Positions 52,029 through 60,783 of a DNA stretch of 64,000 nucleotides are shown in pieces. This DNA comes from a bacterium (GTDB lineage Bacteria > Electryoneota > RPQS01 > DYHQ01). Numbering within the stretch: the first letter of the stretch is position 1; each line of letters begins with the position of its first letter. Both the position numbers and the translations under genes were made by a program. The stretch lies in the NCBI GenBank assembly GCA_030622545.1, contig JAUXGA010000004.1, positions 1 through 64,000 of the forward strand, read 5' to 3'. The notes under the pieces were generated by a model that searched no databases, was not told the origin of the DNA, and saw only the letters and a list, made by a program, of their open reading frames with translations.

Positions 52029-52226
52029 ATGGCCAAGCGGCAAACCTTTGCAGACAAAGTGGCGAAAATTAAGGGTGGAGGGGCGGCACAATGCCCGAAA
52101 TGCGGTGAAGTTCTGTCGGTTGTGAAAATCTGGCAAGCGGAAGAAGCTCCTTCCACCGGACGCCAGCGCATGGTTGAGAAAATCGTCAAGGTCTGCAAAT
52201 GCAATTCTTCTGAGGTATTCGGATAG
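52029..52226 (+). CDS. Small zinc-ribbon protein of unknown function
   Basis: The 65-residue protein has CPKC at about 22-25 and a CKC pair near the C-terminus, arranged as a small zinc ribbon. It is otherwise basic (KRQTFADKVAKIKGG). Small zinc ribbons of this size often bind RNA, ribosomes or other proteins; no function can be assigned. AGAGAGGAG lies about 7 nt before the ATG, and a strong promoter is upstream. rdgB starts 1 bp after its stop. Confidence 0.75.
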   Translation: MAKRQTFADKVAKIKGGGAAQCPKCGEVLSVVKIWQAEEAPSTGRQRMVEKIVKVCKCNSSEVFG

Positions 52227-52227
52227 A

Positions 52228-52830
52228 TTGAGTCGTATTCTCGTCATCGCTACTCGAAATCCTGATAAACTCCGCGAAATCACGCACCTGTTTCAAGCTC
52301 TTTCTATTGATGTGCGTAGTTTTGCGGAGTTTTCTCATGTCGCTCCGGTTATCGAAGATCGCCCGACAATCTTTGAGAATGCGATGAAGAAGGCGATGGA
52401 GGTAGCGGAGCAGGTCGGGCACTGGGTCTTGGCGGATGATACCGGTCTTTTTGTGGATGCTTTGGAAGGAGCGCCGGGAGTAATGTCTGCGCGCTATTCA
52501 GGTCCGGAGGCAACATATGCAAGCAATGTGAATAAACTGCTTTCGGAGTTGGAAGGAGTTCCGGAAACAAAGCGAAACGCGCTCTTTCGCACGGTCATCG
52601 CACTTCGCACTGAGAAGAGTCTTCACCTTGTCGAAGGAGAACTTCATGGGCGCATCGCAACGGAACCTCGAGGTCAACACGGGTTCGGCTATGATCCGGT
52701 TTTTGAGCTTCCGGATGGTCGGACGCTTGCGGAATTGGAATTCGAAGAGAAGAATCGCATCAGTCATCGCGCACTTGCTCTGCAGCGAACAAAGCGGTTG
52801 ATGGAAGAGTTGCTAAAGCTGGAATTTTAA
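52228..52830 (+). CDS. rdgB: dITP/XTP pyrophosphatase (RdgB/HAM1)
   Basis: RdgB hydrolyses non-canonical dITP/XTP and keeps deaminated purines out of DNA. The 200-residue protein has ILVIATRNPDKLREI, the catalytic ADDTGLFVDALEGAPGVMSARY, RGQHGFGYDPVF and the C-terminal EEKNRISHRALAL motif. TTG 52228 lies 1 bp after the zinc-ribbon stop, so it is likely coupled to it. A frame upstream to 52174 would overlap that gene. Confidence 0.95.
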   Translation: MSRILVIATRNPDKLREITHLFQALSIDVRSFAEFSHVAPVIEDRPTIFENAMKKAMEVAEQVGHWVLADDTGLFVDALEGAPGVMSARYSGPEATYASNVNKLLSELEGVPETKRNALFRTVIALRTEKSLHLVEGELHGRIATEPRGQHGFGYDPVFELPDGRTLAELEFEEKNRISHRALALQRTKRLMEELLKLEF

Positions 52831-52855
52831 CCTGTTTCTATATATGATTCTTTTA

Positions 52856-53239
52856 TCAGTCCTTTCCCTCGCAATTCCCGGCGAGGGTTTTCATTAGACG
52901 GCCAAGATCTTCGATTTTAAACGGCTTTTCCAGAAAACCATCTGGAGGATAAAGGCACATATCGAGCATGCCATGGAAATTGGAATAGCCCGTGATGAGG
53001 ATGACTTTGAAATTTTTATTACATTTTTTAATATTCGACAGAAGTTGGATTCCATTCATATTCGGCATGTAAATGTCAGAAATAACCAAGTCTGGATCAG
53101 TTTCCTTGAAAAGCTTCCAGCCTTCCTCGCCATCTTCAGCTTCGACGGTTTCAAAACCGAAATGATTATTGACCCTCCGCAACAAAATTCGTGTAACAGC
53201 TTCATCGTCAACAACCAGGATTTTAAATTTCTTTCCCAT
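52856..53239 (-). CDS. Single-domain response regulator (CheY-like)
   Basis: The 127-residue protein is a lone receiver domain. The acidic pair D11-D12 and the phosphoacceptor D55 (DLVISDIYMPNMNG) are in place, with the conserved threonine in ILITGYS and the lysine in FLEKPF. With no output domain it can act by protein contact or relay phosphate. It is third in the minus-strand signalling unit, 9 bp after the receiver-DHp gene. Confidence 0.9.
   Translation of the reverse strand: MGKKFKILVVDDEAVTRILLRRVNNHFGFETVEAEDGEEGWKLFKETDPDLVISDIYMPNMNGIQLLSNIKKCNKNFKVILITGYSNFHGMLDMCLYPPDGFLEKPFKIEDLGRLMKTLAGNCEGKD
52866..52891 (+). terminator. Plus-strand terminator after rdgB
   Basis: CCCTCGC (52866-52872) pairs with GCGAGGG (52881-52887) and is followed by TTTT. 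It lies inside the 3' end of the convergent receiver gene. Confidence 0.65.
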
Positions 53240-53248
53240 AATAATCTC

Positions 53249-53938
53249 TTATTTCGACCCATGAAGATCGATCATCTCTGCAGATAAGTTATCCCCCACA
53301 GGATGGTGCGCCACCACTGGTTGATAAAGATTTCTAAGCTTCTCCACCACAGCTGAAATACGCTCGGACATTTGAACAATCTCATCTGCCAGCGCTATCA
53401 TCTTTGCTGTATCCGATGAACTCGCGCCCTGAGATGATTTTTTCAATGCCATCATCAGCAACTCTGCATTTCCCATGATTCCGACAAGAGGATTGTTAAT
53501 TTCATGTTGTAGAGTTACCGATGTTTGCTGGATTCCTTTCAGCTTTGTTACTTCAATGAGACGTGTTTCCAGCTCAAGTACTCGTTCACCTGCTCTGACG
53601 CGTGCAAGAAGTTCGTTGAGGTCAAAGGGTTTCGAAATGAAGTCATCCGCTCCTGCCTCCATGCCGAGAACGATGTCCTCTTTTCTGTTTTTTGCGGTCA
53701 ATAGAATAATGTAAACCAGCTGATCTTCACACTGATGCCGTATCTGTTTGCAGAGTTCGATACCGTCCATTCGCGGCATCATCCAATCCGTAATCACGAA
53801 ATGCATACCTTCCGATTGGAGCATCTCCCATGCTTCCTGACCATCGCAGGCCGTTGAAACCTCGTGCCCCCATTGAGAAAGTGTTTTTGTCAGAAGCTTG
53901 CGTGAAACCAGTTCATCTTCTGCAATTAAAATTTTCAT
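53249..53938 (-). CDS. Receiver-DHp protein lacking an ATPase domain
   Basis: This 229-residue protein has an N-terminal receiver (phosphoacceptor D51 in VITDWMMPRMDG, lysine in DDFISKPF), then a helical region that matches a HisKA dimerisation domain. The histidine is H145 in LQHEINNPLVGIMGNAEL. No ATP-binding (N, G1, F or G2 box) follows; the protein ends about 84 residues later. It could be a phosphotransfer intermediate or a coupling partner, by analogy with ATPase-less histidine proteins. It lies between the hybrid kinase and a lone receiver. Confidence 0.85.
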   Translation of the reverse strand: MKILIAEDELVSRKLLTKTLSQWGHEVSTACDGQEAWEMLQSEGMHFVITDWMMPRMDGIELCKQIRHQCEDQLVYIILLTAKNRKEDIVLGMEAGADDFISKPFDLNELLARVRAGERVLELETRLIEVTKLKGIQQTSVTLQHEINNPLVGIMGNAELLMMALKKSSQGASSSDTAKMIALADEIVQMSERISAVVEKLRNLYQPVVAHHPVGDNLSAEMIDLHGSK

Positions 53939-53959
53939 AGGTTCTTTCTTTCAATACGC

Positions 53960-56900
53960 CTACAGTTCCAGCTCTCCAGCAAATTGACGAAAGCGATCGA
54001 GTTGATTCGTCAATTCTGAAAACGCGTTTTCAATTCCGTCAAGTTTAGCTTCCCGTCCCATCATCTCGATTTCGTAAGCGGCTTGCCGTACGGACTCGGC
54101 GGCCAAATCAGCGGCGGCTCCTTTCACACTGTGAGCTTCGGCTTGCAGAGCTTCGGAATTCTGTTCCTCGACAGCTTTTCGTATGGCGTCCAACTGAGCA
54201 GGAATATAATCAAGGAACTCCTGTATCATTTCTTTCAGGAATTCCCGATCATCTCCAAACCGTTCCAGAGCTTGTTCAACATCCAGAGGTGTCTCAGTCG
54301 AGTTCTGAGAATTTGCATTGGTTTCACTCATGGAGTCGCTCTCCTTCTTGTTCTGCAAAAATTCTTCGATAGTGTTGATGAGTTCTTTCGGGTTAATCGG
54401 TTTCGAAAGATAGCCGTCCATTCCCGCCTCAAGACATTTCTTTTTGTCTCCTTTCATGGCATACGCGGTCATGGCAATGATGGGCAGGTTTTCCCAGCGT
54501 GAATCTTGACGCAAATGACGTGTGGCCTCAAACCCACTCATGTTAGGCATCTGGACATCCATGAGAACCAGATCGTAGGCAGTTTTTTCGAGAGCTTCAA
54601 TCGCCAATCGGCCGTCCGCGGCAACATCAACAGTGTACCCCGCTTTTGTCAGGATTTTTATGGCGACTCGTTGATTAATAATATTGTCTTCCGCAAGAAG
54701 AATATGCGCAGGCGTGGTGCACTGCACCTGATTAAAATCTGAAGCGGCTGCAAGCATCTGAATCGACTTGTCAGATGAAGTTCCGTCTAATGTTTTAGAT
54801 ATAAGAATGCGCAGTTGCGACTGCTTGATGGGTTTAGTCAGGTAGGCGCAGCATCCCATCTGCAGATAGCGCGCGGTCTCTCCATGCATTCCCAGAGACG
54901 TCAGTACAATAATATCCACGTTGGCGATAGCTGCCTCAGCTTTAATTTTCGTCGCGGTCTGCAAACCGTCCATAATGGGCATCTGGGCATCAAGCAGAAC
55001 GATTCGAAAAGGATTTCCGGCTTCTGCGGCTTTACGCAGCAGTTGAAGCGCACCGAAACCCGAGTCCGTCTTTACGGGTCGGCATTTCCACGCTGTAAGA
55101 ATTTTCAGCAGATATTTGCAGTTTGTAGTGTTATCATCGACGATTAGAATCGGAACTCCTTCAAGCAAAGCCGTGATGGATTCCTCCTCGGGTGGAGCAT
55201 CGCACAATTCACAGACGACAGTAAAATGAAATACGGAACCCTTCCCAACTTCGCTCTCCACCCAGATACGTCCATCCATCAACTGGACGATTTGTTTGGA
55301 AATTGTCAGCCCCAATCCTGTTCCTGCAAATTGGCGTGTTGTCGAGCTGTCCGCTTGTGTAAAGGATTCAAAGATTGACGAAACGCGTTCGGGCGGAATG
55401 CCAATGCCGGTATCTTTCACCGCACACTTTAGAACTACTTTGCCGTCTGCTGCTTCTTCGGAATAGATGCTAAGAGTCACACTACCTTCCGAAGTGAACT
55501 TGATGGCATTCCCTGTCAAATTGACTAACACCTGACGAAGACGTCCGGAATCGCCTCGCAGCCATCGAGGGACATCAGGTTCTAAATGTAGATGGAGCTG
55601 CAGCTTTTTCTCTTCTACGCGGGTCACCAGAACATCTCCGACACTTTCAATCAGAGATTCAAGGTTAAAATCAATCAGTTCGAGCTCCAATTTCCCTGCT
55701 TCGATTTTCGAGAAATCGAGAATATCATTGATAATATCCAAGAGAGCATTCGCGCTGCTTTTCACCGTATGGAGATATTCCTGTTGTTCATCGTCGAGTT
55801 CGGTGCTGAGAGCCAAATCTGTCATGCCGATGATGCCATTCATAGGAGTTCGTATTTCGTGACTCATATTTGCTAAAAACTCGCTTTTCGCGCGGGTTGA
55901 TGATTCCGCCGAAATGCGCGCTTTGTTGAGCTGCTGATTTGTGGACCACAATTCGATAAGGTGCACGACATCGTTGGCAAAAAGCTCCAAAATGACGACA
56001 GAATCAAGCGTCGGACGTAGTCCGTCCGATGGATCATCAAGAGCGACAAATCCCAGCCATTCCCCATCAGACTTTAAAAGGGGAATATAGAACATATCGT
56101 CCGGATTCCAATCCTTGCATTCTTCGATATCTATCGAACCGGGCAATAAATCTTCTCCCATGAAATTGCGCATTTCCTGATCATTCCAGAGGATATGGTA
56201 ACAATTTCCGAGACGCCATCTGGGTGTTTCTTTCAGTTTATCCACAAAACGCACCCAATCTCTTTTCCTCAAATGTTGGATTTGCTCTTCTTTTAAGCCG
56301 AAAAAGGATGAATTTGTAATCTCGTTATCTTCTGTAAATATAAAAATTGCGCCCCGCTGCCAACTTAGTTTTTTATAACCCAGACCGATTTGCTCGAGTA
56401 GCTCATCGAGACTCGTTGAAAGAAGGATATCCGCAGAACTCCTGACAATCCCGTTGAGTTTTTCATGCTCTCCTTGAAGTTGTATGTTTGAGTACTCGAG
56501 CCGCTTCTGAACTTCAACCAATTCCGTGACATCAACAAATGATTCAAACCCTCCAATAACATTCCCATCTTCATCATGCAGGAGCTCCGCATTCTTCAAG
56601 ATTGTGAGTTCACGCCCATCTTTCGTCTGGATTGTGCATTGCTTTCTGAAGATGTGCTTTTCGCTGTTTGTGTCGAAGAGTTCGCAATTTTCTAAACAGG
56701 GATAACCTTTCAGTATGTGACAATGTTTTCCCAGAACCTCGTCTTCTCTGTATCCTGTGACACGGCAAAATTCGATGTTTACGCTTGTGAAGAGTTTCTT
56801 TGTATCCAAAGTGAAAATCGCCGTTGCAGCGGTACTCAGAAGTTTCTCTTGAAAGGTGATAGAATCTTGCAAATCATCAAATTGTTGGGCGGAATGGAGG

Positions 56901-59140
56901 GCGACAGCTGCGAGATTGCACAAGGTAATGGCTGTTGTCTCATCATCCTCGTCAAATCCATCGTCGCTTTGAGGACTGGCAAGTACAAGCACTCCGATAG
57001 TCTCACCCGCATCCTGAATGGGAATTCCAAGTGCATGAGATTCGGATATTCCCGAAGCAGCCTCTTTATTTTGCGGAGAATGTTGAACTATTTTACCGTC
57101 CTCGAAAAGGCGGAGAGCATCCTCTTCAGTCGTGGAGTTCAATAAGGCAAGAACATCATCCGAAGAGTAATTCCATGTTGTAATCGTCTGAGCTTTGCGG
57201 TGCTGAGTCGGCGCAAGAATCATCGCGGTTAAATCCGCATGACAAAGGATTCTGGCATGTTCCAGCAGTACCGTTAAGGTTTCATTAATATCGAGATGTC
57301 CCGCAACTTCCGTTGCAACCGCATTGATTGATTCAACTCGTTGGAGCGCCTCCTGCATATCAGCTTGAACTTTCTGTTGCTCAGTGATATCCTGGATATG
57401 AACACTGATGCGCGATGAATCATCTGAAGAAGATTTCAGGTGTGAAAAAGACAGCTTTACTTTCAGCTGAGTTTCGTCTTTTGATTTGCGCAGCGTCTGA
57501 AATCCCCGAAGTGAATGGCCTTTGCGGGCGATGCGATTGATTCGCTGTTGTTCATTTTGCCGAATTTCAGGAACCAGCAAATCCCATGATTGACCGAGGA
57601 TTTCATCGGCAGAGTAGCCAAAAATCTGCTCAGCTCCCCGATTCCATGTTATGATTGTGTGCTCGTCGTCGAGGATAAATATCGCATCGCCAATGTTCTC
57701 GACAAGCAACCGGTTCTGTTGTTCTGAATGATAAAGAGCTTCTTGTATCTGTTTGCGTTCAGTGTCATCTCTGAAAATACTAAAGGTTCCTGCAAAGAGC
57801 CCTTCTTCATTTATCCAAGGATTGGCTGTGACTAATATATGACGCTTTTCTCCATTCGGACGAATGATATCCATCTCGTAGATCGTCCTTTTTCCGGCAC
57901 GTCGAATATCCGTTTGTTTGAGAGCCTGTTCGAAGTTTTTTGGATCTGTGAATTCCTTTAGACTTCTCCCCACAAGCTTGCCGGATGGTACACCAAAGAT
58001 TTCTTCTGCTGCTGAATTGGCGAACGTGAAGCGCTCATCAGGGTCTACAATGCCAATTCCTTCTCCCTGTTTCTCGATTAGAAAACGATATCGTTCCTCA
58101 CTTCTTTCAAGTGCAACTTCCATCTGCCTGCGATCGGTAATATCAATAATGTAGCCCAGATAATGAGTGATTTTACCGTCTTCACCTCTCAAGATGGTCG
58201 TATAGTCAGAAATCTGTATTGTCTGACCATCCTTTCGAATGATTCCATAGGATTTGTGTTCAAATCTTTCACAGCCACTCTCACTATAGATTTTAACTTC
58301 GTTGGCAACACGTTCGATATCTTCTTCAGGGATGATCTCTGCATAGGAGACTTTCTTGGACATGAACTCCTCTGCGGTATAACCCATCACAGCTTTCACA
58401 TTTGGCGAAACATACTCTACAGGCCAACCTTCTGAATTTCGCCACTTGAAAACAACCACGGGTCCGCTGATAAACATATTGCGTTCATGTTTCAGGAGTG
58501 TGTTGGACCGGTTTAGTTTTTCCTCCGTTTGTTTGCGCTCATTAATATCGCTCAGCACGCTGATGATTTGCTTCAGTTTGTCACCGGCGAATACGGGAGT
58601 CCATGAGTGCGAAATCCATCTTACCTTTCCGGTCTTTGTCTGGATGCGATACTCATAGTTTGTGCCGCCTTTCCCTGTCAGAGCCTGATAATGAATCTCC
58701 TTAACTCTTACAAGGTCGTCAGGATAGATTATCCACGGTTGTTGACCGACCAAATCTTCCGGTTCGTACCCCAAAACTTTTTCACATGCCGGGCTCAAGT
58801 ATGAAATAATACCATCTGGCTCCGTCACCATAATAACATCATGATTGTTTTCGACGATTTGCTTATATCTTTCTTTGCTTTCCCTTAATGATTCTTCTGC
58901 ACGCCTGCGTTCTGCAAGTTCTGATGATAATGCTTTCATCGCTTGTTGCTTGGAGCGATACCAGAAACCGAGGACGAGACCACCAAAGCCCCCAAGGAAA
59001 AGGGGCATAACGTACCCTTTTAAAACCAGTGGAAAGCCGGAGAATGCTTTTTGAATTGTCGAGAAAATACAGAGAAGAAAGGCGCCCAAGAAGAAGGATG
59101 CTAATTTCTGGACTAAATTTCGCATGGCAGATTTATTCAT
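53960..59140 (-). CDS. Giant hybrid sensor histidine kinase
   Basis: The 1726-residue protein has two N-terminal membrane segments (about 12-31 and 43-61). Five PAS domains lie at about 91-210, 215-340, 345-470, 475-600 and 775-900, and two GAF domains at about 605-770 and 910-1080. A HisKA domain follows with H1094 in [13 protein letters not shown], then an ATPase (about 1150-1340), two receivers (D1384 and D1528) and an HPt domain with H1670 ([11 protein letters not shown]). It can therefore carry a full internal phosphorelay. No DNA-binding output is present. The fifth PAS has a cysteine-rich loop ([16 protein letters not shown]). Confidence 0.93.
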
Positions 59141-59442
59141 AACTTAGAGTCTTCCTGCAGCATTCCTACTACCTCTTCGTAGTTAAGGGATATTATTTTC
59201 CTACACTAATGCAGAATCATTGCCCAAAATCGCAACAATCGAGCCACGAGGTGAGGTGTTGGTGATACGCTGGAAAAGGTAGATTTCGAGCTTGATTCCT
59301 CTACTTAAATTCAGTATATTTCACAATTGGCGATTTGCGTAACAAACCTGCTGGCATAGGCGGGGAAAAGCAACATGTTGCCATTCTTCAACATTAGAGG
59401 TAGGGTCTGCCCTGCTGAAAATTCTTCGCGCGAGGTATTTCT
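59141..59442. other. Intergenic region upstream of gcvPA and of the hybrid kinase
   Basis: The 302-bp gap holds the gcvPA promoter at 59292-59320 and its leader of about 115 nt. The leader includes a GCAACATGTTGC palindrome near 59366. I see no glycine-riboswitch signature. On the minus strand I cannot define a convincing kinase promoter. No gene or repeat is apparent. Confidence 0.6.
59292..59320 (+). promoter_or_regulatory. Sigma70-type promoter for the gcvPA-gcvPB unit
   Basis: TTGATT (59292-59297), 17-bp spacer, TATATT (59315-59320), followed by a leader of about 115 nt. Confidence 0.7.
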
Positions 59443-60783
59443 ATGCAGTACATCCCGAATACCGATGATGACCGGGCTGCCATGCTGATGGCAATTGGTG
59501 TCAGCGATTTTAAGGAACTTCTCCAGCCGATACCCGAAAATTTGCGCCTGAAAAACCCTCTTCCTTTACCTGAAGGGAAATCTGAATGGGAAGTTCGCCG
59601 ACATATGCTGATTCGCGCTAAAAAGAATCGCGATATGACTCAATACTCCAGCTTTTTAGGCGCGGGAATCTATGATCATTTTATCCCTGCGGCCGTACGT
59701 GCATTGACGGCGCGGTCGGAAATCTATACAGCATATACACCCTATCAACCGGAAGTCTCGCAGGGAACGCTTCAGATTATTTACGAATTTCAATCCATGA
59801 TATGCGAGCTTTTCGGGATGGATGCGGCGAATGCGTCTCTCTATGATGGCGCCAGCGCTCTTGCGGAAGCCGTTCTTCTTGCTCAATCACATACGCGCCG
59901 CTCGAAAATCCTCTGGCCGATTTCCGTCCACCCGCACTACCGGCAGGTCACCGAAGCCATCGGTAAACCCATGGGGATAGGAACAGAAATTTTAGCAATC
60001 AAAGATGGAAAGCTGGACGAGAGCGACCTCGCCAATAAATTGGATAGCGAAACAGCCGCTGTTGTCTTTCAATATCCAAACTTCTTCGGGATTATCGAAG
60101 AACTTAAACCACTGATTGAAGCGACTCATCAGCAGGGAGCGCTGGCGATTGTCGTGGCGGATCCCATAGCGATGGGAGTGTTGGAATCGCCTGGCACTTT
60201 GGGAGCGGATATCGTTGTCGGGGAAGGGCAGGGACTTGGAATTGACCCGGCTTATGGAGGTCCGGGGCTGGGTTTGTTCGCGGCAAAGTCACCCTTCACA
60301 CGGAAAATTCCCGGACGTATCGCGGGCGTTACGAAAGATCGCGAAGGACAACGCGGTTTTACCCTGACACTTCAGACCCGTGAGCAGCACATCCGGCGGG
60401 AAAAAGCGACTTCGAACATCTGTACGAATCAGGCTCTTTGCGCCGCAATGGCGACGATTCATTTATCTCTTATCGGCACAAATGGTCTTCGAGAAATCGC
60501 CGAGACTTGCATGGCGAAAGCACATTATCTGGCAAGAGAGTTAGAAAAAGTACCGGGTGTAGAAATCGCTTTTACGTCGCCTTTCTTCAAAGAATTTGCC
60601 GTCCGTTTCCCATTGCCGCCTGCGCAAGTGGTGGAACAGCTCCTGAAAAAACGTATCTTTGCCGGTATTCCCTTACGACATTTTCGAATTGACATGGATG
60701 ACCTGCTGCTTGTGGCTGTCACCGAACAGCGGACAAAAGAGGAAATGGATGCCTATGTCGCCGCGATAAAGGACATCGTCTGA
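59443..60783 (+). CDS. gcvPA: Glycine dehydrogenase (decarboxylating) subunit 1
   Basis: GcvPA is the alpha half of the split P protein of the glycine cleavage system, which decarboxylates glycine and passes aminomethyl to the H protein. The 446-residue protein has SFLGAGIYDHFIPAAVRAL, YTAYTPYQPEVSQGTLQ and the SLYDGASALAEAVLLA region of PLP-fold P proteins. GAGG lies 7 nt before the ATG. gcvPB follows by 33 bp. gcvT and gcvH are not in the window. Confidence 0.96.
   Translation: MQYIPNTDDDRAAMLMAIGVSDFKELLQPIPENLRLKNPLPLPEGKSEWEVRRHMLIRAKKNRDMTQYSSFLGAGIYDHFIPAAVRALTARSEIYTAYTPYQPEVSQGTLQIIYEFQSMICELFGMDAANASLYDGASALAEAVLLAQSHTRRSKILWPISVHPHYRQVTEAIGKPMGIGTEILAIKDGKLDESDLANKLDSETAAVVFQYPNFFGIIEELKPLIEATHQQGALAIVVADPIAMGVLESPGTLGADIVVGEGQGLGIDPAYGGPGLGLFAAKSPFTRKIPGRIAGVTKDREGQRGFTLTLQTREQHIRREKATSNICTNQALCAAMATIHLSLIGTNGLREIAETCMAKAHYLARELEKVPGVEIAFTSPFFKEFAVRFPLPPAQVVEQLLKKRIFAGIPLRHFRIDMDDLLLVAVTEQRTKEEMDAYVAAIKDIV

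Follow-up and report, generated by a model that had tools for sequence, protein, structure and literature searches.

The window, by which we mean the whole 64,000-nucleotide stretch of DNA analysed here, encodes on its minus strand a 229-residue protein (53249-53938) in which a receiver (REC) domain, a signalling helix, a DHp hairpin and a C-terminal stub follow one another with no ATPase domain. This REC-DHp protein belongs to the class of proteins that combine REC and HisKA with a conserved histidine and no HATPase, and its DHp sequence places it in a coherent, widespread bacterial clade of ATPase-less DHps rather than among stray truncations. A lone receiver gene lies directly downstream. 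We favor, with a probability of about 0.5, a reading in which the protein is a receiver-gated adaptor, where a kinase-fed aspartate in its REC, D51, would control the action of the DHp on that lone receiver.

The open reading frame runs from ATG to TAA (53938 to 53249, minus strand). Its receiver, residues 3-115 (53594-53932), is matched by Pfam PF00072 (Response_reg) at E=1.2e-30 and is modelled confidently by AlphaFold, with a block-mean pLDDT of 92-98. E7/D8, D51, T81 and K103 are all present, and D51 (codon 53786-53788), which is invariant in A2, is the predicted phosphoacceptor. Receiver alpha-5 continues into DHp helix 1 over residues 107-138 (53525-53620), and in the model this helix is unbroken from 107 to 169 and is followed by a second at 174-210. 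The hairpin, about residues 130-210 (53309-53551), contains a HisKA match (PF00512, residues 143-204, E=2.6e-7, 31.0 bits against a curated cut-off of 26.9) and an H-box, H-E-I-N-N-P-L, that opens with H145 (codon 53504-53506), 42 residues beyond K103. The 19-residue tail, 211-229, is unstructured in the model and carries the motif M222-I-D-L225 (53264-53275), which is common to the family.

The preliminary description of this locus had read the protein as a receiver with D51 joined to a HisKA-like H-box at H145, stopping before any ATP-binding domain and hence unable to autophosphorylate, and both domain searches and structure prediction bear this out. Pfam gives no HATPase match even at E<=1, no ATPase-like fold is hidden in the AlphaFold model, and a second model, of the C-terminal part alone, produces the same hairpin, with the M-x-D motif disordered in both; a hidden ATPase is thus rejected. 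The H-box carries its histidine, so the objection of a missing phosphoacceptor does not arise. An HPt identity for the C-terminal part was also rejected, as Pfam calls it a HisKA hairpin, and so was a frameshifted or truncated gene, as 107 homologues from many genomes share the end point. Foldseek returned receiver domains for the whole model, and for the C-terminal part weak matches only (none at E<=0.001), in which DHp kinases such as HK853 stand among de novo helical bundles and which are not independent evidence for DHp identity. NCBIfam matches were at receiver level only and under their cut-offs, and a PDE8A_N match in Pfam was dismissed as being under cut-off and overlapping the REC.

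A profile of the C-terminal part, which also scores ordinary HisKA, matched 39/39 in-phylum genomes. From these genomes and three relatives outside the phylum we gathered 65 distinct ATPase-less proteins (the in-phylum set). With a sharper profile, matches at E<=1e-14 were obtained in 160 of 340 genomes. A further 43 members came from 40 loci sampled outside the phylum, and 20 of these members have an N-terminal REC like that of the window protein. Together the two sets make 108 ATPase-less DHps, drawn from the window's phylum and from many bacterial families besides. Pfam finds HisKA in 99 of these and Response_reg in 62, along with many PAS and GAF domains and some propeller, Cache and CHASE4 domains; HATPase_c is absent from the list of the 25 commonest families; as those at the bottom of that list occur once each, at most one member could have it. 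Homologues of the C-terminal part stop about 66 residues past the His site in a stub of the form Y-x(5-8)-M-[ILV]-D-[ILV], and this is true even of full-size sensors of 871-1038 aa that end there without an ATPase (L165:323-2935, with CHASE4-HAMP-GAF-PAS; L192:1738-4554, with a Y_Y_Y propeller; L201, L204 and L205). A DHp tree built without the stub columns, and from 87 alignment columns only, sets 107 ATPase-less DHps apart from 95 that bear an ATPase, one misplaced row aside (aLRT 85). The DHp of the window groups with the other ATPase-less ones. The ATPase label changes twice on this tree against 67 times in shuffles, and a single ATPase-less clade is not rejected (AU p=0.973), in a sample whose members were picked by profiles of ATPase-less proteins, which favors clustering.

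Several members of the clade have recurrent surroundings. In L182, a gene for a GAF-PAS-DHp protein ending in MVDL adjoins genes for an HDOD protein, a sigma-70 factor (regions 2, 3 and 4) and a DUF6115 protein, and a similar gene order is a recurrent context for ATPase-less DHps in L187, L188, L191, L194, L195 and L196, the domains having been checked in L182 only. REC-DHp proteins with the H-box H[HY]INN[SA] occur in one family (L166, L167, L170, L172-L174); the one in L173 adjoins Omp85-like and MlaD genes, and similarly sized upstream genes are found at several of L166, L167, L170, L172 and L174.

The clade has a signature of its own. At the phosphoacceptor position, 40 of the 65 in-phylum members have His and 25 have Asp, while all 43 members from outside the phylum have His. 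Asn at +3 and Asn/Thr/Ser at +4 are each found in 65/65 in-phylum members; in the same proteins the +1 acid, which autokinases use, is not conserved, as would be expected without kinase activity. In the stub, Met is kept in 57/65, Asp in 60/65 and Tyr in 60/65 in-phylum members, and Met in 38/43 and Asp in 39/43 of those outside. The stub usually lies 64-68 residues past the His site. The 77 residues of the window protein reflect an insert of about 10 residues between the two DHp helices, shared with its two nearest relatives, in G012 and G007 (range 75-77). In intact kinases from the same loci, the ATPase domain begins (V/F-D-L) about as far from the His as the stub lies; the stub therefore has the look of opening residues kept from a lost ATPase domain, with conservation of its own. 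The DHp tree traces the switch from His to Asp to a single change. The Asp form is seen in REC-DHp-REC fusions with the H-box NDQ[IV]N[TS]PL (L155-L164, L168, L169, L171 and L177, and in the window's own genome G000:C17:26324-27367), all of which have Asp in place of the phosphoacceptor His and a C-terminal receiver with its phosphorylation residues intact, apart from DN for DD in one. The constancy of His outside the phylum is an argument for phosphoryl chemistry of some kind, while the Asp branch shows that pairing with a receiver can survive without it.

As the preliminary description had noted, giving no strand, the REC-DHp gene lies between a hybrid kinase that ends in an HPt domain and a lone receiver. 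All three are on the minus strand, in the order hybrid kinase (53960-59140; 1726 aa, PAS/GAF-HisKA-HATPase-REC-REC-HPt), a 21 bp gap, REC-DHp, a 9 bp gap, and lone receiver (52856-53239; 127 aa, with the signature ITGY...DGFLEKPF). On the opposite strand, rdgB and a gcvPA-like gene (named by resemblance) flank the set, which is consistent with one operon. Among the 65 in-phylum members, a lone receiver lies directly downstream in 16 and is fused C-terminally in 14. These 30 partner receivers form one clade (support 98/89), which includes the lone receiver of the window and excludes every other receiver of these loci, whether N-terminal, in a kinase or elsewhere. Within the window's order (13 genomes), 26 of 28 ATPase-less DHps have the partner adjacent or fused; reciprocally, 26/26 of the receivers scoring best against a partner profile of 11 rows, mostly from the order, adjoin or are fused to a member. 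By comparison, only 8 of the 96 ordinary ATPase-bearing proteins encoded at the in-phylum and first-scan loci are followed by a lone REC. The partner accompanies 25/25 Asp-type proteins but only 5/40 His-type proteins, the window protein among the 5, and it is rare outside the phylum, where about 3 of 43 members have an adjacent one. Partner receivers retain all phosphorylation residues almost without exception. These patterns support the lone receiver as the probable true partner of the DHp; adjacency and fusion are evidence of linkage rather than of contact or reaction between the two. A second lone receiver that falls near the partner clade (G000:C9:49822-50157) has an orthologue in most genomes of the order and scores 120-135 bits with the partner profile, and no ATPase-less DHp was found beside receivers of this type.

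The input to the DHp is exchangeable, and this shapes our view of what the N-terminal REC does. Across the family, inputs include REC, PAS/GAF, CHASE4 and propellers. The relatives in G012 and G007 are nearest to the window by both DHp and lone receiver, and they are CHASE4-HAMP-GAF-PAS-PAS-DHp and PAS-DHp proteins, respectively, each followed by a REC. The unit would then be the DHp with its lone receiver, a sensor having been replaced in the window protein by the N-terminal REC. Receivers of this REC class occur in many phyla, where they are fused elsewhere to SpoIIE, GGDEF, HD or HisKA-HATPase outputs, and in 16 of 78 scorable loci they directly follow a hybrid kinase with REC and HPt domains, which makes the upstream kinase the likely phosphate source for D51. 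In directly joined REC-DHps the spacing from K103 to the His is mainly 42, 46 or 49, a set that agrees with coiled-coil constraints. Another kind of receiver, fused to a short Cys-rich, probably metal-binding C-terminal domain, P-[IM]-C-x-x-C-[HKR]-x-[IV]-R...FSH[SG][IV]CP-x-C (L085-L094, L100, L101 and L103), also often comes directly after a hybrid kinase.

The adaptor reading joins these observations as follows. The upstream hybrid kinase would probably phosphorylate D51, directly or via its HPt, and phosphorylation would alter receiver dimerization. The continuous helix would transmit this alteration to the four-helix bundle of the DHp, in the way described for LvrB of Leptospira, a REC-DHp-CA kinase in which the helix that follows the phosphorylated REC dimer is wound into a coiled coil and the DHp is altered as a result (PMC13269768; PDB 8vc9). 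LvrB is the nearest solved structure for the C-terminal part and likewise has an N-terminal REC that is helix-continuous with a HEINNPL-type DHp; the two proteins align without gaps from residue 110 of the window protein to the His (LvrB 126-161, His161). It is this mechanism, the ungapped alignment and the 42/46/49 spacings that favor D51 as a gate. The output would lie in how the DHp interacts with the lone receiver, whose gene is 9 bp downstream: in one state the DHp would exchange phosphate with that receiver through H145, stimulate its dephosphorylation, or both, and in the other state it would do neither. Handling of the lone receiver could thus take the form of transfer via H145, dephosphorylation or holding, among which sequence cannot decide. 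More speculatively, the clade may be an ancient bacterial one whose DHps gave up ATP and became input-gated readers or erasers of one dedicated partner receiver, with the Asp branch as a pseudo-DHp that only binds or dephosphorylates, without histidine chemistry.

The preliminary description had instead proposed a linear phosphorelay, from the kinase HPt to D51 and on through H145. In such a relay D51 would hand the phosphate to H145 within the dimer and H145 would hand it to the lone receiver, so that the protein would amount to a fusion of Spo0F and Spo0B. Two of its elements stand, in that D51 is probably kinase-fed and the lone receiver appears to be the true partner. Every residue that a relay requires is present, the genes run in the order kinase-HPt, REC-DHp and REC, retention of the His outside the phylum implies selection without a kinase domain, and PhyT shows that a sensor-like, kinase-dead protein can act as a phosphotransferase (PMC5898713). 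However, the closest DHp-receiver pairs swap the REC for PAS/GAF, which leaves them with nothing equivalent to D51 in cis, 25 members without the His still keep their receiver, and in the model one rigid helix joins REC to DHp. The sister genus, G001, weighs in the same direction. There, in the same neighborhood (sigma factor, rdgB and gcvPA), the lone receiver has an orthologue with 57% identity, while REC-DHp and the hybrid kinase are absent from the syntenic locus (L284:2465-5361, compared with 52174-60783 of the window), which lies on one contig of an 88% complete genome. No remnant of the missing genes is found in the 0.5 kb beside the lone receiver of G001, and three DHp members were found in that genome, two of the Asp type and one with an atypical M-I-A-I end. 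Persistence of the receiver without these neighbors suggests that the role of the DHp is modulating rather than an obligatory step. A linear relay from D51 through H145 is therefore possible but the less likely reading.

Still less probable, in our estimate, is that the protein, controlled by D51, serves only to bind the lone receiver and either dephosphorylate or hold it, with no forward transfer. E146-x-x-N149 fits the phosphatase motif of HisKA kinases, E/D-x-x-T/N; the constancy of +3 and +4 beside an unconserved +1 acid, and a pairing that outlasts loss of the His, point the same way, and this function has already been proposed for archaeal analogues (PMC5847659). Strict retention of the His across the wide family argues against it. 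So does the fact that the phosphatase activity of an isolated DHp usually benefits from an ATPase domain. The stub occupies the position at which intact kinases begin the first strand of their ATPase domain, and this would suit a functionless kinase remnant, or a His that is phosphorylated in trans by the ATPase domain of another kinase in a mixed dimer, but a single clade, a conserved stub, a conserved partner and a wide distribution oppose decay, and we regard this as very unlikely.

The architecture class itself is already known from archaea, where REC-(PAS/GAF)-HisKA regulators, or 'nonenzymatic HK-like proteins', lack HATPase and have been proposed to act in relay or as phosphatases, with none tested (Galperin et al. 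2018, PMC5847659), and where P2CS labels them 'possible incomplete histidine kinase'. The likeness extends to REC and HisKA, a conserved His, no HATPase and predicted dimers; in contrast, the clade described here is bacterial, forms its own clade among the DHps sampled here, and has an M-x-D stub, a His-to-Asp branch and, in one order, a dedicated partner receiver. Neither this bacterial clade nor its stub or partner receiver appears to have been described, and literature searches turned up no experimental work on a REC-DHp protein lacking CA. LvrB differs in having a CA/ATPase domain, with which it autophosphorylates H161. Spo0B and ChpT share with the window protein a dimeric DHp hairpin, a phosphate-shuttling His and the lack of autokinase activity, but neither has an N-terminal REC. 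Spo0B keeps a degenerate Bergerat domain. The DHp phosphotransferase ChpT retains a degenerate, ATPase-like Bergerat domain (PMC3433190), whereas the REC-DHp protein ends after the hairpin. Neither is among the 17 matches of the family profile to PDB sequences at E<=0.01. PhyT is a HisKA_2-type protein, and Pfam matches only HisKA (PF00512), not HisKA_2, in the REC-DHp protein. PhyT of Sphingomonas is kinase-inactive and histidine-bearing, relays from receiver to receiver and also sequesters a receiver (PMC5898713), but it is membrane-bound and lacks an N-terminal REC. By the features tested, the REC-DHp protein is outside the Spo0B/ChpT and LvrB families, and at most would work like ChpT or PhyT.

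Kinase-like proteins without an ATPase are commonly annotated as kinases or fragments, and here they make up a coherent, widespread clade with its own signature. A small soluble system with a receiver partner that is genetically fixed in one order suits the question of relay, phosphatase or scaffold that has been posed for the archaeal class. The His-to-Asp branch offers a natural control that parts receiver binding from histidine phosphochemistry. Members of the Asp type are also found in an order-wide signaling island (G000:C7:134000-146000, L181; syntenic in L176, L178-L180, L183-L186, L189 and L190), which encodes a REC-(REC)-PAS-DHp protein ending in MLDL, a partner receiver, REC-PAS-kinases, a REC fused to an RsbW-like HATPase_c_2 (compare LvrC) and, in some genomes, a small HPt.
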